Positions 24,690 through 47,882 of a stretch of 64,000 nucleotides of DNA are shown one piece after another. This stretch comes from Pelosinus propionicus DSM 13327 (lineage in GTDB: Bacteria; Bacillota; Negativicutes; DSM-13327): positions 1 through 64,000 of the forward strand of contig NZ_FOTS01000011.1 of the NCBI RefSeq assembly GCF_900114615.1, read 5' to 3'. Below the pieces are notes generated by a model. The model was not told the DNA's origin and made no database searches. It was given only the letters and a program-made list of their open reading frames with translations. How positions within the stretch are numbered: the first letter of the stretch is position 1; every line of letters begins with the position of its first letter. Position numbers and translations under genes: made by a program.

Positions 24690-27041
24690 TTACTTGAATT
24701 TCATTTTACGCTGGTTTAGCTTCTGCAATAGACCAGGACGACCGCTGGGAATGACAATCTCTCGCATGATCTCATCAATAGACAATCCCAATGATTGCCC
24801 TGCCATCATCTCATCACCCGATATTGGACTTATTTTTTCTGTATAACAAGCAACAATTAGCCCAATGAGGGCACCTACCAAAGGCACAGCGGCCCATGGT
24901 AAATAAGGAATTCCGCTTTTCCCCAAAATAAATATACCCGTTAATAAAATAGCGCCGATTACCATCCCATAAATTCGTTCAGCACTTGTGAAAATAGCTG
25001 TAAATGAACGAAGTAACCCACGCCAGCCTCTTGCTGGTTGTCTTTTATTGATTCTGCTGCAGCGTATAACCGTCATAATTGCTGTATGGTCTAATGCCAA
25101 GAAGAGTATGGTGACAATAATTGCAGTCATCCCAGACAGAACTGCTCTAACTTCATTTAATACACTATACAGCTCACCGCGTGCATTCGGTTCAATAATC
25201 CCAAGATCAGTAGAGTATAAAGATACATTCTTATGACCCACCTGACTATATACAACAGGCGCTACTGCATCTGTGCTGATATTGCTGGTAGTGAGAATTT
25301 GAATTCGTTCTCCTGGAATCGCTTGTCCTGCAATGAATTTATCTAATACAGATACAGAACGAGTAATTTCCTCATCTTTGAGGTTCGGCACAGAAACTGC
25401 CAAATATTGCAATTGCTTACTTACTAGAGGCGTATCCAGCTGCCCAAGCTGATTTAATCGTGTATTGATGCTATTCATATTTTTCTTAGTACCTTCTACA
25501 TCAAATGCACGTAAAGTCCCAATGGTATTATTTCCATTAGCTACAATATTGTCAATCGATCCTTTGGCCTGGCGCGCATCAGCAGCAACGTTATCCAAGG
25601 CTGCTAATCCAGATTTTAAGGTGCTTAAGTTTTTTTGAGAGGCAACTAGATTGTCTACTGTCCCACCGACACTGCTATCTACCAACTTTAGCACCTGCAA
25701 GGTATTAATTAACCCTCCCATAGATCTAGAAGAACTATCGATCTGATCTTGTACAGATCTTGTATCAATATTGGCAAGACCGCTAGTAGCTGTTTGAATG
25801 GTCGTACCTGCTGTTTTCAGACTCGTTAGGGTTTGCTCCATGGCAGCAATGCTATTGCTGTAATTGTCCAGGGTGAGGGTAGCAATTTTATTTAAATTTT
25901 GACTATCCTGAGCAAATCCAGGGATCTGATCTACGATCTTAGTGGTTTCCGTTAATGCTGTCCCCAGCTGCTGTCTTGGATTCTGATACGCAGCTGTACC
26001 GACATAATCACTAATTACACCATTACTTGCCCGATATCCTTGATTATTCGTAAGAAGGGCTGCATCTCCTTGGGTAATCGTCCCTTCCCCTTTGCCATCT
26101 GTATGCACAGCTGTAATCTGCACGATTACATTTCCTTTATCTACAGGATTGCCAGGCGCCAAAGCCGTCCCAATACCTGCAAATGCAATGGTATCTCCTT
26201 TCACTAACTTTGTACTTCCATTTGGCGTGATCGTCACTTGAGAAGCATAGGCTGCTAGAAATCGCTTTAATTCCATCATTGTACTAACCATATAGGTCAT
26301 ATCATCATTTTTGCCGTCAATCGACACATTTTTAGCATATTCTAACTTCAATTGATTTTTCATAGCATCCCCAATAGACTCTCCCATACGAATCGGATTT
26401 TGGGGTTCACTGCCAACGGGGAAACTGATTTCAATTACTTGGTATTGTTTTAAGACCTTCTTAATTTCCTCTGTAACCATGGTAGATTTATCAAGGGATG
26501 ATAGTACAACACCAATAGATGAGCCATCACGAAAAGCAAAGCGTACACCGTCAATTTGCGTAATAACATCCATCATCATGGTTCTTGCTCCCTCTGGCAC
26601 ACCACGAATGGTCAGTCTTGGTTCCGTTAAAACACCAACTCCTGCACCACCAGGAATACCGCCAAAAATCTTCCCTAATTCTTCATAGGTTTGCTTGGTT
26701 TTATTTTCTTCAGGTATAGCAATAAAGAAAGACGTTTTACCTGTAATCGTCGGTCCCTCTTTCATTCTTGCTCCCGGAAAAACTTCTTCAATAATTTTTT
26801 GAATATGAGTTGCAGTATCTTCTTTCATTTCCTCCCGGGATTGAATGAGAATATCATATTCACCATAGTCACCTACTAAACTCGCTAAGGTTTTAGAAAA
26901 ATAGGAATTAGCTGCCGTAGAGATAGAAGTAGCAAGCAGTGAACCAATCACGATACTAACTACCATCAGGGTAATGATATCTCGATAAAATGAATCCTTT
27001 GTTAGATTCATGATCTTTCTTTTGGCTAGACTAGTAGACAT
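24690..27041 (-). CDS. ABC permease with very large extracytoplasmic domain, function unknown
   Basis: A 783-residue protein with one N-terminal membrane segment (about 22-44), an extracytoplasmic region of about 590 residues, then three C-terminal segments (about 634-657, 690-708, 712-733) and a cytoplasmic tail. This TM1-domain-TM2-4 order is that of MacB/LolC/FtsX (type VII) systems, although I see no direct sequence motif of those families. The middle (about 370-560) is rich in heptad-like helices (EQTLTSLKTAG, SQKNLSTLKSG). It precedes its ATPase by 57 nt and is flanked by LPS and Bam genes. A role in lipid or lipoprotein movement is a guess from location. Confidence 0.65.
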   Translation of the reverse strand: MSTSLAKRKIMNLTKDSFYRDIITLMVVSIVIGSLLATSISTAANSYFSKTLASLVGDYGEYDILIQSREEMKEDTATHIQKIIEEVFPGARMKEGPTITGKTSFFIAIPEENKTKQTYEELGKIFGGIPGGAGVGVLTEPRLTIRGVPEGARTMMMDVITQIDGVRFAFRDGSSIGVVLSSLDKSTMVTEEIKKVLKQYQVIEISFPVGSEPQNPIRMGESIGDAMKNQLKLEYAKNVSIDGKNDDMTYMVSTMMELKRFLAAYASQVTITPNGSTKLVKGDTIAFAGIGTALAPGNPVDKGNVIVQITAVHTDGKGEGTITQGDAALLTNNQGYRASNGVISDYVGTAAYQNPRQQLGTALTETTKIVDQIPGFAQDSQNLNKIATLTLDNYSNSIAAMEQTLTSLKTAGTTIQTATSGLANIDTRSVQDQIDSSSRSMGGLINTLQVLKLVDSSVGGTVDNLVASQKNLSTLKSGLAALDNVAADARQAKGSIDNIVANGNNTIGTLRAFDVEGTKKNMNSINTRLNQLGQLDTPLVSKQLQYLAVSVPNLKDEEITRSVSVLDKFIAGQAIPGERIQILTTSNISTDAVAPVVYSQVGHKNVSLYSTDLGIIEPNARGELYSVLNEVRAVLSGMTAIIVTILFLALDHTAIMTVIRCSRINKRQPARGWRGLLRSFTAIFTSAERIYGMVIGAILLTGIFILGKSGIPYLPWAAVPLVGALIGLIVACYTEKISPISGDEMMAGQSLGLSIDEIMREIVIPSGRPGLLQKLNQRKMKFK

Positions 27042-32167: not shown

Positions 32168-33442
32168 TTACAAATGACCAACCAGTCGCAGCCATTGATC
32201 ATCCTTTGTAATAATATATTCAGCACTTAAAAAATCATGGAGCTTGTAACGAAGTCCTAGTTCATTATTGCGATTTTTAGTATTCCGCTCTAATCGCATT
32301 GTCCAGCTTGGATTAAGCTCTTTTTGCAGCCACAGCCCATTTTGTGAATTTGATGTATTATATTTGATCCCAGCTATTGTATTAGCTCCCAGTCTATGCC
32401 CCCACCCAGGCACAAACTCCCAGGAAACAGAGCTGGGAATAAAATTCACTTCTAGAAAGACCTCATCACGCTTACTGACAATCTTTCCTGCATGCAATCT
32501 AGCAAAAGCATTGTCTTCATCGTGACCCATATCCAAATAAGCTTCCAGCGTGATGTTATATTTATCGGTTTCAACATCTAAAGCAATTTCAGTATCTGCC
32601 CCAGCATTAAGCAAGGGATTTACTGTAATTCCATATTTTTTAGTCAAAGGCTGTTCTGCAAGCAATTTCGCTGTAAAATACTCACGGTGCCGTTCCACAA
32701 AGGCTACAGGCAGGCCAATTAGTATTTTACTGGTCTCATTCATCGTCGGTCGCACTGCCGCTAACACGACATTAGGGATGGTCGTAGAACGAAGGGAGAC
32801 ATGAACATCCTGTACAGTCGTTCCCAATGGTGATAAGGAGAACTTTATTACTGTGTATTCTCCCGGAATAATATCCATATTAGCATGAAATTCAGGCAGC
32901 AGATTTGCCAATGATTCACGTATTGCGACTTTCGACAACCCTCCTGCCCAGTCTACTGCATCAATAGGTAGTCCAATTAGTACATCATTTAATTTTTCTT
33001 CTACATTTCCCATATCATTCTTTATCAGATTTATGATATCCGGGGAAAGAGTACCAAAGTCATATGCTATAGAGACCTGACGCACCACATCTCCCCAGGG
33101 TACTATCTCAATCGTAAGAGCAGTGTTCAAACCAGGTCTAAGATCAACAGACTGAACAGAATATCCTACTAATACGCGATCAAAAATTTCCTTAATCAGT
33201 TTTTCATAAGTAATCTGATTTTCTTTTACTTCAGTCACCTTACGGCCTACAATCATTTGCTCACCTACAGTATTCACACTGGCCATCATGCGTTTTTCAA
33301 TTTTAGAAGGAGGCATATGACTAGAAACGATAGTGACATCGATTGTTTCTACTAAGTCATCAGAAGCATAAACCACCCCTGAAAACAATAGTAAACTGAG
33401 TAACGTGCTTGTGAGAATAAGACGAAAATGATATAGAGGAAT
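32168..33442 (-). CDS. Outer-membrane protein of unknown function, apparent AUU start
   Basis: About 424 residues. The first ATG/GTG/TTG in frame (TTG 33388) would begin inside a hydrophobic stretch and has no ribosome-binding site. Upstream, in frame, GGGAGG is followed by three ATT codons (33448, 33445, 33442) and a perfect signal peptide, IPLYHFRLILTSTLLSLLLF then SGVVYA. I therefore infer an AUU start, best spaced at 33442. The mature protein has an alpha/beta N-terminal part of POTRA-like periodicity (unproven) and a strand-rich C-terminal half (about 250-424). It sits between bamA and skp, so an outer-membrane assembly role is likely but not shown. Confidence 0.6.
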   Translation of the reverse strand: MPLYHFRLILTSTLLSLLLFSGVVYASDDLVETIDVTIVSSHMPPSKIEKRMMASVNTVGEQMIVGRKVTEVKENQITYEKLIKEIFDRVLVGYSVQSVDLRPGLNTALTIEIVPWGDVVRQVSIAYDFGTLSPDIINLIKNDMGNVEEKLNDVLIGLPIDAVDWAGGLSKVAIRESLANLLPEFHANMDIIPGEYTVIKFSLSPLGTTVQDVHVSLRSTTIPNVVLAAVRPTMNETSKILIGLPVAFVERHREYFTAKLLAEQPLTKKYGITVNPLLNAGADTEIALDVETDKYNITLEAYLDMGHDEDNAFARLHAGKIVSKRDEVFLEVNFIPSSVSWEFVPGWGHRLGANTIAGIKYNTSNSQNGLWLQKELNPSWTMRLERNTKNRNNELGLRYKLHDFLSAEYIITKDDQWLRLVGHL

Positions 33443-33547: not shown

Positions 33548-35275
33548 TTAGAATTGTCCGCCAAAACTAAAGTGACTTCTACCACCTTGACTGCCTTGGG
33601 CGTAGTCAAGACGAATCGGACCGATTGGCGTAGAAACACGAATCCCCACACCTACACTGGCCTCTAGATCATTCAGCTTATATCCTTCACCTGTCCACGC
33701 TTTACCAACATCAGTAAAAGCTACACCCTCTACTTTTTTGGCAATCGGGAAGCGATATTCTGCTGTAGCGGCCAGCATTTTATTACCCTTAAATTGATCA
33801 TCACGGTAACCACGCAGAGTGTCAGAACCACCTACGGCAAAACGTCCGCTGTCTGGCATTTTGCCATCAGCATAACCAACAGTTCCCCGCAGTGCTACTA
33901 CTTGTGCATGTCCTACCTTCAGATAGTTCCGAGTCTCAGCAGTGTATTTATTATAGTTAAAATCACCGCCTAAAGCTTTTCCGGCAAATTCTGCTGTTAG
34001 AGCCACACGATTCCCTTCTGTAGGGCTAAATACATTATCACGGGAATCATAAACACGCATTAAGCTAATACTGCGAGTTGTACCAAAATTATCTTTAAGA
34101 TACTCGGGATCTTTTGTATAATCTTCTCCTGATATCCATTCTACATAGTCATCTTTTCTTTGTTTCAAAGTAATATAGTTTTGTACATACTCACCTTGAG
34201 GACGACCAAGGGTGATATCAAAGCCTTTACGTCTTTTGTCGTAAGTAGCTTTCTTATCTCCATCATCATCATAATCATTATATTCGTTGGTCATGTCATA
34301 AAAGCTAAATCCAAGAGATGTTTGCTTGTCATCCAGCCATGGGCGAGTGTAACTCACTTCATAGTTCTTGTTGCTGGCACTGCCGCCAAACTCCCAATGC
34401 AACTTCACTTTATCTCCCGTACCACGGAAGTTGTCATCACCAAGCTCAATAATCCCAATCATACCATCGCTTTTGCTGTAGCCGCCCCCAATGGAGAAAC
34501 GACCTGTCTTTTGTTCTACAACTGTAGTCTCGAGAACAATGGCATTCGGTTCTTTTCCTGGGTTCAGTTTCATATTTACATCTTCAAAATAACCAAGGTT
34601 GTACACTTTTTGCATACTGCGCTTCGCATCTTTTACGTTAAATGGCTGATTCGGCTTTAATTTCATTTCACGAGTAATAACATGGGTCTTTGTCTTTTCA
34701 TTGCCTTTGACTTCAATGCCTTCCAGCATACCTTCATTAATGGTAATTGTCAGCACACCGCCAGTTCCCATTGCAACATCGCTTACTTTGGTCAAGATAT
34801 AACCCTTATCATGATAATACTCTTCAATGGATCTTACATTTTCATTTAACGCTTTCGAATTTAAAATACTGCCTGTTTTAACTGTCAGCATACTGCTTAG
34901 CTTATCGGATGACACCTTGGTATTGCCTTTTATAATAATTTCCTGCAATACTGGATTTTCCATCACGGTATAGACTACTTGTACCCCTTCAGGAACTTCA
35001 TTGAAGTTGGATACTACATCAAAAAAAGTACCTAATTCGTAGATCGCTTGCATATCTTGTTTCACCTTGTCCGCTGTCAGCGCTTCACCAGGCTTCAACT
35101 TTACTGCACCCATGATCGTCGCTTCTGGTACTGTTGTATTGCCAGTGACAGTTATGGAAGTTACAGTTTTACCTGTAGGATCAGCAGCATAAGCTGGAGC
35201 TAAAATAGAAAATACAAGACTGATACTAAAGATAGCTGCAAGCAGAATATGCTTATAGTTTTTTTGAATTTTCAT
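33548..35275 (-). CDS. bamA: BamA/Omp85 outer-membrane assembly protein
   Basis: A 575-residue protein with signal peptide (to about 30, APAYAA), three POTRA domains (about 36-105, 106-183, 184-262) and a 16-strand-type barrel (about 270-575) with SDTLRGYRDDQFKGNKML, the conserved RGY region of Omp85, and a C-terminal Phe. E. coli BamA has five POTRAs; three is common in diderm Firmicutes as far as I know. It inserts barrel proteins into the outer membrane. RBS AAAAGGAGG precedes the ATG. Confidence 0.93.
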   Translation of the reverse strand: MKIQKNYKHILLAAIFSISLVFSILAPAYAADPTGKTVTSITVTGNTTVPEATIMGAVKLKPGEALTADKVKQDMQAIYELGTFFDVVSNFNEVPEGVQVVYTVMENPVLQEIIIKGNTKVSSDKLSSMLTVKTGSILNSKALNENVRSIEEYYHDKGYILTKVSDVAMGTGGVLTITINEGMLEGIEVKGNEKTKTHVITREMKLKPNQPFNVKDAKRSMQKVYNLGYFEDVNMKLNPGKEPNAIVLETTVVEQKTGRFSIGGGYSKSDGMIGIIELGDDNFRGTGDKVKLHWEFGGSASNKNYEVSYTRPWLDDKQTSLGFSFYDMTNEYNDYDDDGDKKATYDKRRKGFDITLGRPQGEYVQNYITLKQRKDDYVEWISGEDYTKDPEYLKDNFGTTRSISLMRVYDSRDNVFSPTEGNRVALTAEFAGKALGGDFNYNKYTAETRNYLKVGHAQVVALRGTVGYADGKMPDSGRFAVGGSDTLRGYRDDQFKGNKMLAATAEYRFPIAKKVEGVAFTDVGKAWTGEGYKLNDLEASVGVGIRVSTPIGPIRLDYAQGSQGGRSHFSFGGQF

Positions 35276-35293: not shown

Positions 35294-35848
35294 TTACTGG
35301 CCGCGTAATGTTTTTCCGGCGGCCCGCACCAATTTTTGCATTTCATCAGGTGAGATGGCCGCCGCTGGCTCCACCTGCTGAGAAGTTTCAGTTCTTTTTT
35401 CCTGACTCATTGAAGTTGGTGCTGCAACACGTTGTACTGGCGGAGCAGCATCTATTACTACTACTTTCTTTGTCTCCACAGAGACAGCTGGCAATTGCCC
35501 ACCATTACTGCTGCTTTGTATCTGAGATTCCACTGGTGCACTTACTTTTTTCACCAGAGGAACAGGTACAACATGATCTGGTTTAGACGTCCACCAATAG
35601 ACTCCCCCCAATCCTGCTGCCATTACTACGGCACAGGTCAAAGCGACTCCATGACGAACCACTGTATATTTGTGACGCCAATGTTTAGAACGGCTGACTT
35701 CTTTTACATGCTGAAGTTCAGCTTGAGCTAACATTAGATCAAGCTCACCACGAATATCTCGTTCTTTGTCAAAAGCTTCCTCTGCTCTTGTCAGCCACTT
35801 TTTCGCAGAAGACAAATGCTGGTATACATTTTTTCTAAAATGAGCCAT
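35294..35848 (-). CDS. Single-pass membrane protein downstream of a sigma factor
   Basis: A 184-residue protein from ATG 35848 (AGGGGTG before it; an 11-codon hydrophobic extension to 35881 is less likely). An N-terminal charged helical region (1-63) is followed by one membrane segment (about 66-83) and a Pro/Ala/Ser-rich tail of 95 residues outside. I recognise no family. The layout, cytoplasmic helical domain, one TM, low-complexity outer tail, is that of many anti-sigma factors, and the gene just upstream encodes a sigma factor. That link is an inference; bamA follows after 18 nt. Confidence 0.6.
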   Translation of the reverse strand: MAHFRKNVYQHLSSAKKWLTRAEEAFDKERDIRGELDLMLAQAELQHVKEVSRSKHWRHKYTVVRHGVALTCAVVMAAGLGGVYWWTSKPDHVVPVPLVKKVSAPVESQIQSSSNGGQLPAVSVETKKVVVIDAAPPVQRVAAPTSMSQEKRTETSQQVEPAAAISPDEMQKLVRAAGKTLRGQ

Positions 35849-35938
35849 ATACAACACCCCTATTATAAACAATATATACAATCCTGAAAAGAGGCCAGAT
35901 TATGGTCATTGATTTCCTTTGAAAAACCTTTGTTTTCG

Positions 35939-35950
35939 ATGATTAATCAT
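35939..35950. promoter_or_regulatory. Perfect 12-bp palindrome between sigma factor and membrane protein
   Basis: ATGATTAATCAT is self-complementary and lies in the 154-bp gap between the sigma gene and the membrane-protein gene. It may be an operator. No clear terminator was seen in the gap; a TATAAT at about 35856 is too close to the ATG to judge. Confidence 0.3.
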
Positions 35951-36002
35951 GTTTTCTATAACAATTCGTACTATATGTGCCTTTTTTCTCTCTTTTTCAT
36001 CA

Positions 36003-36641
36003 TTACCAGTGCTGCATAAATTTGGATAACATGCCTCGAATACGCCTGATACCTTGTTTTTGTAATTTGTAAATATGAGAGATGCTTAGATCTAAGTTTT
36101 CCGCCAATTGTTTGGGTTCACAATCTTCTAAGAATACGCCGCTCAGCACCGCCTGCTCCTTAACAGGCAGACGATCCATGGCATTTTTGACCTGGGCCAC
36201 TAGATAATTGTGCTCAGCTTGGCTGGAGACACCAGCTTTAGCATCAACTAACACATCTCTGAGAGTAAGGTCTTCTTGTGCTGATAAAGGACTATCCATA
36301 GAGGCAATGCTAAATTTACCTTCTTTTTCCATATAATTAATGATACGTCCTCGTATTCGCTGAGACGCAAATAGGCTAAAAGCCACGTTTCTTTGGTGAT
36401 CAAATCTCTCTACTGCCTCAATCAGTCCCACTGTCCCTTCTTGAATCAAATCCATGATCACCGTTTCATTCAAACGCCAGCCAGTAGCAATCTTAAATAC
36501 CAGCGGTTGATAATGCTCAATAATCTTGCTGCGGCAGTCCATATTATCATGTTCTTTATACTGGAGCCACAAGGCTTCTTCTTCTTCTCGTGACAGCATG
36601 CGTATTTTCTTAAGCTCTTTTACATATTGACTTAATATCAT
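36003..36641 (-). CDS. RNA polymerase sigma-70-family factor
   Basis: A 212-residue protein from ATG 36641 (three codons inside the longest frame; GAAGG is better spaced for it). Region 2 is clear (DLIQEGTVGLIEAVERFD, then AFSLFASQRIRGRIINYM, about 64-104), as is region 4 (LPVKEQAVLSGVFLEDCEPKQLAENLDLSISHIYKLQKQGI, about 155-196), with little room for region 3. This is a group 3 type sigma rather than ECF. It lies between tamB and bamA, so control of envelope genes is a plausible role. Its target promoters are unknown. Confidence 0.88.
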   Translation of the reverse strand: MILSQYVKELKKIRMLSREEEEALWLQYKEHDNMDCRSKIIEHYQPLVFKIATGWRLNETVIMDLIQEGTVGLIEAVERFDHQRNVAFSLFASQRIRGRIINYMEKEGKFSIASMDSPLSAQEDLTLRDVLVDAKAGVSSQAEHNYLVAQVKNAMDRLPVKEQAVLSGVFLEDCEPKQLAENLDLSISHIYKLQKQGIRRIRGMLSKFMQHW

Positions 36642-36658
36642 GTGGATCATCCTTCTTC

Positions 36659-39600
36659 TTAAAACCTATACCTAGCTTCTGCGCCAAGCCATGTCTCTTT
36701 TTCATCATCAATAGAGCCTGTTAAACTAATGTTACGATTTAAGCTATAACGAAACGATACTTCATTTTTACTGTGATCAACGCCCATAACATAGCTTATC
36801 AGTAATTTATCGGTCAAATATTTACTCATCTCCAAATTATATACTTCTTTATTGATGGTAGAGCTCTCATCACTTTTAGTAGTATTCTTTTTCACAATAC
36901 TAGAGCTAGTATCTCGAACAAAACGGAATTCATCCAAGCCCAAAGCACTACGGACATTTCCTTCAATTTCACTAATAAAACGCATTTGCAGACCAGCATC
37001 AAGGGCCCCCATGAGTTCATCCCGCCCAATCCCTGTATCTCCGCTGTTTTGCTTTTCAAAATAACGGCTGCGCAGCGTCAGAAGTGATAGAATTTCCTGC
37101 TGGTTCATAGCTGGCTCTGAAGTCAAATTAAATGCCATTTCTCCCACAGGACCATTGATATTTAAATATACCACCGTTTGCTGCAGGGTTGCTTTAGCAT
37201 GTAGTTTAATAATTGGTTCAAAAGACGCAAATTGCCGAAATTCTACACTTCCTTCTTCCACCTTAAATTGCGTTCTTAGATAACTTACAGTACCACGAAT
37301 TACGACAATGCGTCCCGAAACATCAGGTTCTGCAATACTGCCCCCTACTTTCACTCTACCAACAGCTAACATATCATACAGATAGGGATTATAAAAGCGA
37401 ACTTTCTTCCCAACCTGTATATCAACATCCAAATTCATGTCCAGATTGGATGGTTCCATATCCGGCAGAGCAGGAATGTCGATGATATTATTTTCAAAAA
37501 GCAACTTACCTGTTAATTTCGGTCGTATACTGCCTTGGCTAATAGTCAAATTTCCATCAACAGCACCAGTAAAATATTTGCTGCGAATCATAGGTTTATC
37601 CAAAATTAACGACATGCTATAATCCGCCAAGCGAAATCCATCTAACTTCACAGTGCCTGTCGCGCGATACGAACCAGTTCCCATATAACCATCAAATTGC
37701 TTTATATTAATTGTATCACCTTCAAAGGCAATAGCAACCCCCACTTTTTGGATGGGGTCTTTTAACGCTGACAATTTAAGCGTGCCATTACTAACCGTAA
37801 TATTTCCCTTAAGAGCTGGCTGCTTTAAGGTACCAGCTATAGTGATTTCACCTTGGGTCGCCCCCTCAGCCCATGCAACCTGTTTTGTTAATAGTGGCAA
37901 AATGCTTAAATTTGCTTTATCCAATTTCACATTGAGATTCATCTGCTCTCTGGAACTGGCTTGCTCTCTGCCTTCAGAACTAAGGGCTGCCACAGGAATA
38001 ACACCATAAGCACTGGCCTGATAAGGGCCTTTTTTCAGCAATACTTGATCCACATGAATTACATCCTTATCCAGGATCAATAACCCATATAAAGAGTCAA
38101 AAGTCGTATCACCTATTCCGCCATTCACAAGCTCTAACGATAAAGCAGTATGAGGATTATCCGATACCCCTGAAACTTGCGCGGCAAAATCCAGCTTGCC
38201 CGTAGGCTGAATGGAGGTATTAAAGAAGGCAGCGACTAAGCCGGCATCGATTCCCCTTCCGCCTACTTCCATGTTAAGAGGCCCATTGGCATTTAAATCT
38301 GCTCTTCCACGCGCCAGCATAACTCCCGTGCCCTGCTTGGCAGAAAAATCTGAGATAGTAAGAATATTATTTTCTAATGCAGCATCCACAGTGATGGACT
38401 CAACTGGATATTTTTTCACACTACCGGCTTTTAAATCGCCAATCAGTCGAACATTGGGCTTATCAAGACTGCCAGTTACCTTTATCTGACCGTTTAATGT
38501 ACCCAAAATCTCTTTATTACCTAACTTAGCTGCTGCTAGTATAGGCTGTAATTCGCCATTTTCTACATTTAAAGTACCATAAATTTCATTTGTTCCCCGA
38601 TCAAAACCGCCAAAGAAAGTAAATCTACCCTTTCCTTGAGCAAAAGAAAGGCTGGGAATCTCTACGTCATCACCTGTAACAGCAATGGTGCCAGTTACGC
38701 CTGTGACTTTCTGCTGATTCAGGCTAAGAGTCTCTGCAGATAATTGTCCTTTAAAAATAGGAATCGAAGGGCTGCCCGTCAACTTACCAACAAATTGCGC
38801 CTTGCCTGCAGCAGTGTAAGCACTATTACTTAAAGTTAATTTCTCCAAATCAATATTTTGGGCGGCAACATCAAAATTCAAATCATTATTGGGAGAAATT
38901 GTACCTGAAAGCTGAATCTGGGTACCGAGTGACTGGATAACAACATCATGGATGCTGGTTACTCCTTGTTCTCTTCTATAAGAGCCAGCTGCCTTTGCCA
39001 ACAACTGACCACGGAAACTGCCATCCGTCAAAGTGATTTTACCAGCGATCATAGGATTCTCCAAGGAACCCGTAATGACCATCTCATTATCTACATTACC
39101 TGTCAGCTTCTCTCCCGGCACCAATAGAGGCACTAACGTTTCTGCTCTAGCTCTTCTGGAAACAATAGAAATATCCACTTCATGCCCACCAGATAATCCA
39201 ATCTGACCTTGGGCTATATGTCTAGTTGGACCGTAAACCATTTCAGCATTTTGCAGTGTGGCTTGGTCAGGCGTTATATGAATATTGCCTGTTACTTGAG
39301 TAAAAGGCTGATATAATAGTTCCCCATTGATAGCTATAAAATCAGCAGTTATCTCAGGGGCTGTTAACGTACCACGAACCTCCCCATTAAATTGACCGAC
39401 TCCTGCAGTATTTCCTTCTATACTTTTGCCTAGCAGCTCTAATGGTATGCCTTGACCAGATATTTGCACAGCAATAGCTTGATCTTTCACCACCCCTTGA
39501 GCCGTTACCATACCTTGACCTATACCAATATTCAAATAGTCTATAGCAGCATTTCCCTTATGGTAGTAAAATCCGCTGGTCACGGAAGTAAAGGGAATAT

Positions 39601-40972
39601 TGTTAACTTCACCTGATCCGATTGTCACATTCCCCTGAATCTCAGCTCCTGCTAAATCTCCTGCCCCCTTAATCGCTAAAACCGCATCTGCATAACCGTT
39701 CATATCCGGCACTAATTCAGGGAATTTTTGAATATTAATATGCTGACCATTAAGGGAAAGCTGATAACTGCCTGTATCATGCTGAAATTGCCCTGAAACA
39801 GCAACATGTCCATCAAAAATATCCCCTTCCAATTGCTGAATTGTAATGATCTTATCCACCAGACTCATTTTCGCCTGTACATTAGCTGCCTGATACCCGG
39901 CTACTTCCCCTGTTGGCATTTCAAATCCCCCTGTAACAACAGGATTTGAGATAACGCCTGTAATGCCAGCCTTCAATGCTACTATTCCTTTAACAGGAAT
40001 ATCATAATTTGTTGCACTAGGATCAAAAGCAGCCGAAGCCACTGTTAGATCCACAATCATTTCACTGGCATCCGTATCCACACTGCCTCGTACATCAATA
40101 GGCTGCTCAAATATTTTTCCTGCCACAAACATATATATCTTCTTATTGGTAAATGCGATACCTCCATCGATTTGACGTAAAGGGATCTCATCAAGATTTA
40201 TATCGGTTTTTTCCAGGCGTGCTTCACCAGCCCACTCCATAGCCCCGTTTTCATAGGCAATGGTTGCTTCTATCTGCTTTACGCTGCCTCCCACCAACTG
40301 AATCGATCCGCTTTCAGGTATTAACCTTTGAAAACCAGCTAGCATGAGTTGATCTGCATGAAGAGCGAGAGTACTGCGCCCTTTACTATGAATCGTCCCC
40401 TTTGCTTTCACTGCTGTCCCATTGTGCAATCCTTCTAACTCCATCTTGATTCTAGGAGCATTAGCAAGATCTAAAATTCCATTTAACTCCTCCACTGTCC
40501 ATTGAGAATGATAAGCATTGACTATAGTTTTACCATTCACTACTTTTATTTTGGCCGATAAAGATGACTCTGATGAATCATCTTTAATCACAATATCTTG
40601 AATGTTCCACTGACCGCTTTCTCGCTGCGTAAGCCAAAGAGTAGGCTCCTCCACCCTTAGCTCAGAAATAGATTTTATCACATTCCATCCAGTCAAAATA
40701 CTCCAGGGACTATAGGAAATAATAATTTTGTCAGTAGCAGCTAGAATTTCCGATTGTTTATCATAAATAGTCACATTATGTATGGCTACTTGATTATAAG
40801 AGGTGACTTCAATGTCTCCCACGGTGACTAAGCTGCCGAATACATTGGCCAATTCTATGCTCAGCGCATTTTGTGCCCCCGTCATAACGGTTTGGCTTTT
40901 AGTTAGCCAATAGGCACTGCCAATTAAAAGGATCATACATACTGCCAATACTGCAATGACTCTTTCTTTCAT
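36659..40972 (-). CDS. tamB: TamB-like intermembrane lipid transport protein
   Basis: A 1437-residue protein with an N-terminal membrane anchor (about 4-20), then repeated beta-strands for almost its whole length (recurrent patterns such as VTGSLENPMIAGKITLTDGSF), ending in a DUF490/TamB C-terminal domain (LRTQFKVEEGSVEFRQFASFEPIIKL and a final EARYRF). TamB-type proteins form a hydrophobic groove that moves phospholipids between membranes. Length is like E. coli TamB (1259). No tamA is visible, so it may work with BamA, encoded three genes downstream. RBS CAGGAGG is optimal. Confidence 0.9.
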   Translation of the reverse strand: MKERVIAVLAVCMILLIGSAYWLTKSQTVMTGAQNALSIELANVFGSLVTVGDIEVTSYNQVAIHNVTIYDKQSEILAATDKIIISYSPWSILTGWNVIKSISELRVEEPTLWLTQRESGQWNIQDIVIKDDSSESSLSAKIKVVNGKTIVNAYHSQWTVEELNGILDLANAPRIKMELEGLHNGTAVKAKGTIHSKGRSTLALHADQLMLAGFQRLIPESGSIQLVGGSVKQIEATIAYENGAMEWAGEARLEKTDINLDEIPLRQIDGGIAFTNKKIYMFVAGKIFEQPIDVRGSVDTDASEMIVDLTVASAAFDPSATNYDIPVKGIVALKAGITGVISNPVVTGGFEMPTGEVAGYQAANVQAKMSLVDKIITIQQLEGDIFDGHVAVSGQFQHDTGSYQLSLNGQHINIQKFPELVPDMNGYADAVLAIKGAGDLAGAEIQGNVTIGSGEVNNIPFTSVTSGFYYHKGNAAIDYLNIGIGQGMVTAQGVVKDQAIAVQISGQGIPLELLGKSIEGNTAGVGQFNGEVRGTLTAPEITADFIAINGELLYQPFTQVTGNIHITPDQATLQNAEMVYGPTRHIAQGQIGLSGGHEVDISIVSRRARAETLVPLLVPGEKLTGNVDNEMVITGSLENPMIAGKITLTDGSFRGQLLAKAAGSYRREQGVTSIHDVVIQSLGTQIQLSGTISPNNDLNFDVAAQNIDLEKLTLSNSAYTAAGKAQFVGKLTGSPSIPIFKGQLSAETLSLNQQKVTGVTGTIAVTGDDVEIPSLSFAQGKGRFTFFGGFDRGTNEIYGTLNVENGELQPILAAAKLGNKEILGTLNGQIKVTGSLDKPNVRLIGDLKAGSVKKYPVESITVDAALENNILTISDFSAKQGTGVMLARGRADLNANGPLNMEVGGRGIDAGLVAAFFNTSIQPTGKLDFAAQVSGVSDNPHTALSLELVNGGIGDTTFDSLYGLLILDKDVIHVDQVLLKKGPYQASAYGVIPVAALSSEGREQASSREQMNLNVKLDKANLSILPLLTKQVAWAEGATQGEITIAGTLKQPALKGNITVSNGTLKLSALKDPIQKVGVAIAFEGDTINIKQFDGYMGTGSYRATGTVKLDGFRLADYSMSLILDKPMIRSKYFTGAVDGNLTISQGSIRPKLTGKLLFENNIIDIPALPDMEPSNLDMNLDVDIQVGKKVRFYNPYLYDMLAVGRVKVGGSIAEPDVSGRIVVIRGTVSYLRTQFKVEEGSVEFRQFASFEPIIKLHAKATLQQTVVYLNINGPVGEMAFNLTSEPAMNQQEILSLLTLRSRYFEKQNSGDTGIGRDELMGALDAGLQMRFISEIEGNVRSALGLDEFRFVRDTSSSIVKKNTTKSDESSTINKEVYNLEMSKYLTDKLLISYVMGVDHSKNEVSFRYSLNRNISLTGSIDDEKETWLGAEARYRF

Positions 40973-45751: not shown

Positions 45752-47566
45752 CTATTTCTTCGTTGAGTCTTTTACCACGTTGACTACAACTTGTGTATCG
45801 CCGTCAATAATATAATCTGTGGTAATGCTATTCTTTACTTTTCCTTGCTTTTTCTTATCTTTAGAATTTATCGCTTTAATATCAGTTTTTAGAGAAACTG
45901 TATTTTCTACTATACCTTTCTCTTGATTCTTACTATTTGTTTTTTCTTTGCCTAAAGTAGCGTTACCAAATAATTCATTCATTCCCATGTCCAAAACTTC
46001 TACAACAATTTCATTGTTGCGGTCACGTTCCATAAATTCTTTAATGACATCAGCAAATTCCTGATTTCTGGGTTTTGCCTTGCCAAGCAGCAATAATCCT
46101 TCATCCCCTCCTTGATTCTTAGCTAATAGCTGTATCAAAGGTACCATGCCGCCCCCGCGCACTTCTAAGGTAAGAGGCCCTTCTGGCTGATCTTTAGGGA
46201 CCGTAAAGGAAACGATGCGCTGAATTGGCTCGCCGCGGAAAGGCTTTATTTTCACGCCAACTTCAACATTTTCACCAGGTTTTACACTAGGAGTTTTGGC
46301 CTGTGCTTCCACAATGGTAGCTGTACGACGCTCTTCACTAACAGAAACGTTGATCTTAACATCCATCAGGTCAACTTGATTATAAGGATTACCTGTAAGC
46401 ATCGCCATAGCATCTAAAAATTCACCTACTGCAGCTTCACCAATGCTAACAGGACTATAAAACATATTTTCTCTGGTAATAACTCCCACTGGCATATTCC
46501 GTCCAGAAATTTCAAAACTCACCTTAGCTGTTCCCGGTCCTACCCGATCCATCGTTTTATCAATCACATTAAACATGGTAGTAGCCGATAAAATAGAGGA
46601 GAGTTGTTCATCTTTTACTACTTGTACCGCTGCATCCTGAGTTTGTCCTGTATCATTATCTTTCACGATGATGCGTATCGGAATAATCGTTGGGTACCTG
46701 CTTAGATATCCAGCAATTCCTGCTCCTCGATCCTGATTGATAATACCGACAGGTTCTCCCATTGTACCAACTTTAAATGAGTTTTCTAAGCCACTAACAG
46801 TAGAAAACACATATGCATTGGTCATAAAATATCCAATATTCCCCTTTTTAAGAAATGGATGACCAAATGCCAAGACCTTATTATCTTCCACGTAAGTAAC
46901 AGTCCCCAAAGCACCCACACTTACATCACCACGGACTAACTCAACACCAACAGCACTCCCAGGTTCTAAAGGAGCAAACACCACATCTGAAGGAGTCTCT
47001 CCTACTTCTTGGGGAACTAAATTAAATGGCTTAAGTTTGTCTTGCAGCATCGTTAGAGCATGTTCACTAAAACCAGATACCATCAAGGGTGTGGTCATTG
47101 GCTCAAAATCTGGTATCTCCTTTACAAATTGCATTGTAGCATTATAGTTGTCTGGCATATTCCATAATTTCAACATATCCCCAATAGGAGTAACCATGCC
47201 AACTTTATGATCCGTCAAAGACCAGCCGTAGGCAACAGCTCCTACCAGCTTACCATCAATATATACAGGACTGCCGCTCATTCCTTGTGCAATTCCTCCA
47301 GTTCGGTCAATAACATCTCCAGAAGTTCGCACTAAAATCAAATCTCCTGCTGGTCCTTTGTTTTTCATGATCCCTAATACTTCTACACCAAATTCTTCTA
47401 ATTTAGTACCGGAGACTACCGTCTTGCCAACGCCCTGCATACCTACCTTTATATCCTCTACTGGCATGATTTCGGGTGCAGCCCATACTAAAGACATGGG
47501 CAGCATTAATAAAAAAATAAGCAGTGCCAGACGACACTGCCTGCATAATCTTACCAAATATATCAT
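45752..47566 (-). CDS. S55-type (SpoIVB-like) serine peptidase, exported
   Basis: A 604-residue protein from ATG 47566 (a TTG at 47557 is better spaced from AGAAAGG and is an alternative). Signal peptide or anchor to about residue 29 (SLVWA). The S55 peptidase signature GMSGSPVYIDGKLVGAVAYGW gives a nucleophile at about Ser97, and AFGHPFLKKG a candidate His at about 236. In SpoIVB the His precedes the Ser, so the order here looks permuted, and the PDZ domain of SpoIVB is not evident. The last 80 residues are Lys/Asn-rich. It starts 7 nt after a small membrane-protein gene, which could encode a partner or substrate. Confidence 0.8.
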   Translation of the reverse strand: MIYLVRLCRQCRLALLIFLLMLPMSLVWAAPEIMPVEDIKVGMQGVGKTVVSGTKLEEFGVEVLGIMKNKGPAGDLILVRTSGDVIDRTGGIAQGMSGSPVYIDGKLVGAVAYGWSLTDHKVGMVTPIGDMLKLWNMPDNYNATMQFVKEIPDFEPMTTPLMVSGFSEHALTMLQDKLKPFNLVPQEVGETPSDVVFAPLEPGSAVGVELVRGDVSVGALGTVTYVEDNKVLAFGHPFLKKGNIGYFMTNAYVFSTVSGLENSFKVGTMGEPVGIINQDRGAGIAGYLSRYPTIIPIRIIVKDNDTGQTQDAAVQVVKDEQLSSILSATTMFNVIDKTMDRVGPGTAKVSFEISGRNMPVGVITRENMFYSPVSIGEAAVGEFLDAMAMLTGNPYNQVDLMDVKINVSVSEERRTATIVEAQAKTPSVKPGENVEVGVKIKPFRGEPIQRIVSFTVPKDQPEGPLTLEVRGGGMVPLIQLLAKNQGGDEGLLLLGKAKPRNQEFADVIKEFMERDRNNEIVVEVLDMGMNELFGNATLGKEKTNSKNQEKGIVENTVSLKTDIKAINSKDKKKQGKVKNSITTDYIIDGDTQVVVNVVKDSTKK

Positions 47567-47573
47567 CCTTTCT

Positions 47574-47882
47574 TTATTTACCGATTTCAATACGAGCAAC
47601 TACATCGCCAACAGCCACTGAGACTCCTGGTGAAACTAAAACCTCTTTTACAACGCCGTTAGCTGTGGCTCTTGATGCTGGTATGGCTCCTGTTATTGTG
47701 TCAATTTTCACTAAAACATCACCTTCACGGACAGTATCCCCAGGTTTAACCAAGCCATTACTTGTAATGGTTCCAGCCAGAGATGCCTTTTGTTCTACAA
47801 CACTATTTGCAGTAACTAATAAGCTGCCAACAATTAGCACAAAACCGATTACCAAAACTGCTATGCTTTTTCTATGAAGCAT
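47574..47882 (-). CDS. Small membrane protein with lipoyl/barrel-sandwich fold
   Basis: A 102-residue protein with an N-terminal membrane segment (about 6-27) and two quasi-repeats, NGLVKPGDTVREGDVLVKI and NGVVKEVLVSPGVSVAVGD, which make a biotinyl/lipoyl-type sandwich as found in HlyD adaptors. There is no modifiable Lys at the hairpin (SRATANG), so it is not a carrier. It is tightly coupled to the S55 peptidase gene (7 nt). Role unknown. Confidence 0.7.
   Translation of the reverse strand: MLHRKSIAVLVIGFVLIVGSLLVTANSVVEQKASLAGTITSNGLVKPGDTVREGDVLVKIDTITGAIPASRATANGVVKEVLVSPGVSVAVGDVVARIEIGK

Follow-up and report, generated by a model that had tools for sequence, protein, structure and literature searches.

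The window analysed here, a 64,000-nucleotide stretch of the Pelosinus propionicus DSM 13327 genome, carries a sigma factor gene and a gene for a small membrane protein between tamB and bamA, all four on the minus strand, as described in an earlier, sequence-only reading of this DNA. tamB (36659-40972), named from that reading and from the gene order described in PMC5007114, lies directly upstream of a sigma-70 family gene (36003-36650; referred to below as sigma), from which it is separated by 8 bp; sigma encodes 215 residues, or 212 from an alternative ATG at 36641. A gap of 154 bp leads to the membrane-protein gene (35294-35848), whose one-pass product of 184 residues belongs to no known family and is proposed here to be an anti-sigma factor, and 18 bp further downstream lies bamA (Omp85; 33548-35275), which is likely to form one operon with the membrane-protein gene. 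The pair occupies the same genomic locus as the TamB/BamA/Skp envelope cluster of diderm Firmicutes, described as conserved in Negativicutes and Halanaerobiales (PMC5007114, PMC5491611); the word 'sigma' is absent from the main text of PMC5007114, and a literature search that covered few subscription papers returned no description of the pair. As for the neighbouring genes, a 406-residue protein encoded directly after bamA (32168-33388, minus strand) and a 783-residue protein of the outer-membrane cluster (24690-27041, minus strand) match no Pfam family, and the same cluster holds a gene for a SpoIVB-type S55 peptidase (45752-47599, minus strand; Pfam E = 1.2e-12). By eye, proteins resembling this peptidase are also encoded just upstream of tamB or bamA in the pair-less diderms L227, L229, L234, L235 and L248.

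Membership of sigma in the sigma-70 family is established by regions 2 and 4, which both score above the curated Pfam cut-offs (Sigma70_r2, E = 8.6e-16, 57.9 bits against a cut-off of 24; Sigma70_r4, E = 4.6e-7, 29.7 bits against 24.1). The Pfam match to region 1.2 is weak, and Sigma70_r3 gave no match at E ≤ 1. Since region 3 is absent, sigma falls short of a complete group 3 factor of the FliA/SigB/SigF type, and its scores lie far under the cut-offs of all equivalog models listed, FliA, SigB, SigF, SigG, SigE and SigK among them; the earlier designation 'group 3-type' thus fits only in part. Region 2 resembles those of group 2/3 sigma factors, and a structure search placed the sigma part near WhiG, among others. 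A sporulation sigma was considered as an explanation and set aside, because non-sporulating genera such as Selenomonas and Megasphaera keep the gene and because six of the eight other sigma-like proteins encoded in the genome stand apart from it in the sigma tree.

The membrane protein has the layout that had been read from its sequence, namely a charged cytoplasmic part, a single membrane segment and a Pro/Ala-rich tail. It contains one hydrophobic segment (residues 67-85, encoded at 35594-35650, minus strand) and no second. Across 192 homologues, the 15 residues before the segment hold on average 4.36 Lys and Arg, against 1.07 in the 15 residues after it, with the excess lying before the segment in 188 homologues and equal counts in 4. 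The positive-inside rule therefore predicts an N-in orientation with the charged part in the cytoplasm; an outward-facing charged part, named earlier as an outcome that would speak against the proposal, was not predicted. Residues 1-62 (35663-35848, minus strand), the proposed sigma-binding part, form a helical hairpin with the family motif HLxSAxxWLxxAExSFDxxxDxRGELxLMLAQAELQH. The periplasmic tail, in which Pro and Ala average 27%, is predicted to be disordered and ends in a conserved helix at about residues 168-184 (35297-35347, minus strand; LxxxEMQxLxRxAGKSLRGQ), the proposed sensor end. The N-terminal motif, the single transmembrane segment, the Pro/Ala-rich tail and the conserved C-terminal end are common to the homologues, and relatives outside the class show, by eye, a similar L..L...A...L pattern at the C-terminal end. 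In an AlphaFold2 model of the membrane protein of the relative L018, a helical hairpin runs into the membrane segment and is followed by a disordered tail and a C-terminal helix (pLDDT about 94 for the hairpin and 93 for the C-terminal helix block).

No relative of the query was found in Pfam, NCBIfam or the PDB, 67 homologues gave no consistent known family, and a search with the predicted fold returned generic helical hairpins only (best E = 0.62). The scattered family matches of the homologues were rejected, as they look like chance matches of Pro/Ala-rich or transmembrane stretches. In neither sequence nor predicted fold does the protein resemble known anti-sigma factors; what it shares with the functional class of one-pass membrane anti-sigma factors is its place next to a sigma gene, its single segment and its predicted cytoplasmic N-terminus.

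Conservation of the pair was surveyed in 301 Negativicutes genomes. An ortholog of sigma was detected in 233 of them (E ≤ 1e-20) and the membrane protein in 237 (E ≤ 0.01); the two lists, compared by eye, differ in four genomes, for which profile searches showed that sigma is also present, cut at contig ends, in G027 and G213, and that neither gene is present in G110 and G257. The resulting distribution is 235 genomes with both genes, 66 with neither and none with one alone, so that the conservation check suggested by the sequence-only reading comes out in favour of the pair: the membrane protein never occurs without sigma in the same genome. Some absences may reflect incomplete genomes, yet G024, G058 and G063, among other pair-less genomes, are 99% complete; joint loss is repeated, and G063 lacks the pair inside a genus that otherwise carries it. 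In all 79 loci that were inspected first (some of which are the same genome twice), the four genes keep the order tamB-sigma-membrane protein-bamA; among the named hosts in which the sigma gene occurs are Sporomusa, Selenomonas, Megasphaera, Pectinatus, Mitsuokella, Anaerovibrio and Propionispira. The sole separation of the pair that was found occurs in a rumen Selenomonadaceae genome (G291), in which sigma is found on a different contig, among other genes, and the membrane-protein gene is still beside bamA; both genes are retained. The pair behaves as a functional unit that is gained or lost only together, and the repeated loss of both genes together points to a functional bond.

To look beyond the class, 300 genomes of the phylum were searched with a profile; the N-terminal domain of the membrane protein was detected in 11 genomes outside Negativicutes, which fall in eight families (f47, f60, f66, f114, f116, f129, f138 and f139). 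All 11 have an Omp85 (bamA-type) gene and the same gene order, with extra genes between sigma and the membrane-protein gene in L243. The pair was not found in the other Omp85 genomes inspected, where tamB is mostly followed directly by bamA, the rest having no recognised tamB just upstream. In the sigma tree the Negativicutes sequences group together (99/99) and the outside sequences branch below them; of the two remaining sigma-like proteins of the genome, one falls just outside the family and the other is drawn into it by an extremely long branch, a placement that we take as an artefact. Together, the tree and the distribution fit old vertical descent with repeated joint loss of the pair. 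Several loci outside the class (L217, L218, L221, L244, L246, L216 and L222) also share a conserved stretch, GGAAGGAtT...GGTCGAAC/GGTAGAACC, upstream of the sigma gene. The genome that contains the window has, besides its bamA, a second full Omp85/BamA-like gene strongly similar to it (L262; G000:C72, about 104188-105108), whereas one BamA homologue per Negativicutes genome has been reported (PMC5007114).

We interpret the pair, with a probability of roughly 60%, as a dedicated sigma/anti-sigma module for outer-membrane biogenesis that controls the operon of the membrane protein and bamA. An unlikely alternative makes the membrane protein a component of the TAM/BAM machinery, with a structural or assembly role as a tether from the inner membrane to BamA, and has sigma drive the operon without binding this protein. 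The long disordered Pro/Ala tail with its conserved terminal helix has the shape of a periplasm-spanning element, and the gene stays beside bamA even where sigma has moved away, as would suit a tether; the tails of single members also give weak matches, at the level of chance, to TonB and GspB models. However, many diderm Firmicutes lack the membrane protein, among them Veillonella-like genomes in which tamB adjoins bamA (Veillonella TamB, Vpar_0526, and BamA, Vpar_0527, are listed as adjacent genes in PMC5491611, and the pair is absent there). Furthermore, the protein is lost only jointly with sigma, and the cytoplasmic hairpin is one of the parts of it that are conserved best.

Contact between sigma and this hairpin, as would be expected of the sigma/anti-sigma module, was addressed by mean-field DCA on 191 sigma/membrane-protein pairs. 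The mean of the top 20 sigma-hairpin couplings (1.252) exceeded all 36 clade-preserving permutations (12 at each of three cluster cuts, with maxima of 1.218, 1.084 and 1.044), and the single best coupling was not above this null; the DCA result also exceeded a random re-pairing null, which ignores phylogeny. The coevolution signal between sigma and the hairpin is no more than suggestive. The L018 proteins were also modelled as a fused chain in which the stop codons between the genes were read as residues, a device that carries no claim about translation. In this model, which comes without a PAE map, pLDDT reached 96-97 in the hairpin and 86 in the C-terminal helix; as the hairpin is almost as confident when modelled alone (94), the models give no sign of sigma-hairpin contact. 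The facts of linkage and topology would fit equally well with a positive partner that recruits or activates sigma at the inner membrane, close to where the outer membrane is assembled, and were the gap promoter sigma-dependent, sigma would make more of that partner, such that feedback of either sign is possible. Nevertheless, where a sigma gene is directly followed by one for a one-pass N-in membrane protein, the latter is mostly an anti-sigma factor, and no result here points specifically to activation, making a positive role quite improbable.

The gap between the two genes is usually 140-170 bp long; in some genomes outside the class the genes almost touch, leaving no room for a promoter between them. 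In the window, it contains a conserved promoter-like element at 35875-35908. The -35-like part is held in an imperfect palindrome, GACCATAATCTGGCC (35893-35907, minus strand), which is the only exact copy in the genome, and the -10-like part, GATTGTA (35877-35883, minus strand; class consensus GATTATA), lies 35 nt before the start codon of the membrane-protein gene. The element takes the form GTsAAA-N17/18-GATTATA across the class and GACCAnAA...GGATTRTATA in the relatives of Pelosinus. Motif discovery in distant genomes returned a sequence resembling GGATTATA some 30-45 nt ahead of the start codon (LLR 67, against 20 for shuffled sequences), with a weak -35-like GTsAAA 17-18 nt upstream of the -10-like core, and in Pelosinus and Sporomusa relatives it returned a longer block, GACCAnAATCTGGCCTCTTCCCAGGATTATA (429 against 66 at width 18). 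The core GA[TC]TATA is present at -62 to -20 of the membrane-protein start in 77 of 177 class genomes, compared with 0/177 at -110 to -68 and 11/177 inside sigma; looser -10 forms bring the number of class genomes with a site to 121/177. A second convincing copy of the Pelosinus-type element was not found in its own genome, and the extra copies in 60 relatives are nearly all at three mismatches. As no second copy was found, no envelope-stress regulon is visible through this element in the genome, and the position and conservation of the one in the gap would fit autoregulation.

Other candidate sites in the gap fared less well. A palindrome at 35939-35950 (ATGATTAATCAT) had been put forward as an autoregulatory site; it is perfect, it is one of 21 perfect 12-nt palindromes in the window, and it is broken in genomes of the same genus, so it was discarded as an operator, and the conserved element lies elsewhere in the gap. 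A TATAAT at the start of the membrane-protein leader was rejected as a -10 because the transcript would then start inside the ribosome-binding site and because the sequence is not conserved class-wide. Separately, in L092 and L073 the gap carries long inverted repeats that may be terminators or operators and that precede the -10-like element. The least probable of the alternatives is that the housekeeping sigma reads the gap promoter while the neighbouring sigma acts elsewhere and the pair is kept by operon inheritance only: recognition of the element by sigma is our proposal, the -10-like part is A/T-rich and only one copy was found in the genome, but the class-wide core is GATTATA rather than TATAAT, the core is nearly absent before bamA in pair-less genomes (1 of 21 upstream regions) and the repeated joint losses speak for a functional bond.

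Returning to the sigma/anti-sigma module, we infer the following course of events, from the binding of sigma, the signal and the release mechanism to the recognition of the gap promoter and the size of the regulon; topology and analogy are the grounds for proposing that the membrane protein inhibits sigma, senses through its C-terminal helix and lets sigma go. The membrane protein would sit in the inner membrane, with its short cytoplasmic hairpin likely keeping sigma inactive and its Pro/Ala-rich tail reaching into the periplasm, where the terminal helix probably reads the assembly machinery or another envelope component. A changed signal would free sigma, either through a conformational change or through proteolysis of the membrane protein, for which the SpoIVB-type S55 peptidase encoded in the cluster is, from its location alone, a possible protease. 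Freed sigma would then guide RNA polymerase to the gap promoter, directly in front of the membrane-protein gene, so that the membrane protein, BamA and the products of the genes behind would rise and the feedback loop would close. The idea of an independently evolved envelope sigma/anti-sigma switch, with which the sequence-only reading began, accordingly survives in part, retaining the inseparable pair and the predicted cytoplasmic charged part and losing the palindrome and the complete group 3 factor. A more specific version is doubtful and is offered tentatively: a single-operon homeostat, separate from RpoE and handed down vertically from an ancestor shared by several lineages of diderm Firmicutes, in which the membrane protein would be an anti-sigma factor of a new kind (two helices forming a cytoplasmic hairpin, joined to a periplasm-spanning tether), its terminal helix would read BAM directly and sigma would serve essentially one promoter, that of the sensor-BamA operon.

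Among known systems, RpoE/RseA of Proteobacteria is similar in that a sigma gene is followed by that of a one-pass N-in membrane protein, with a link to outer-membrane protein assembly and likely autoregulation. It differs in that sigma has a region 1.2-like start and a region 2 of group 2/3 type, and in that tamB and bamA flank the pair; Pfam and NCBIfam searches detected neither an RseA-like nor another known anti-sigma domain in the query, nor one found consistently among the 67 homologues, and no RseB-like gene was noticed next to the pair. RsgI of the SigI/RsgI system of Firmicutes crosses the membrane once, between a short N-terminal part in the cytoplasm and a long outer part that is rich in Pro in places, an architecture that matches the one-pass layout of the membrane protein; the RsgI N-terminal domain gave no match to that protein, and the SigI model is absent among the best 25 NCBIfam matches of sigma. 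As in FecI/FecR, the periplasmic end of the anti-sigma factor could, by analogy, contact an outer-membrane protein, but there is no FecR domain, the modelled tail is disordered with one helix, and the place of the TonB-dependent receptor would be taken by the BAM machinery. With RsiG/WhiG of Actinobacteria the likeness lies in the sigma part, structurally near WhiG among others, and in the anti-sigma factor RsiG being likewise built of helices; no RsiG chain is among the 50 matches listed for the membrane-protein model. RsiG is soluble and works with c-di-GMP (PMC8325347), whereas the protein here is membrane-bound.

The regulation of outer-membrane assembly in diderm Firmicutes is unreported as far as our literature search showed, and the pair, which most Negativicutes and genomes of eight further families carry between tamB and bamA, provides a concrete handle on it, with the promoter element making the proposed switch directly testable. 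The membrane protein would represent a family that currently has neither a name nor a model. The pair would probably adjust how much of the assembly machinery is made to the condition of the envelope, and it bears on how the outer membrane is kept or lost in Firmicutes.
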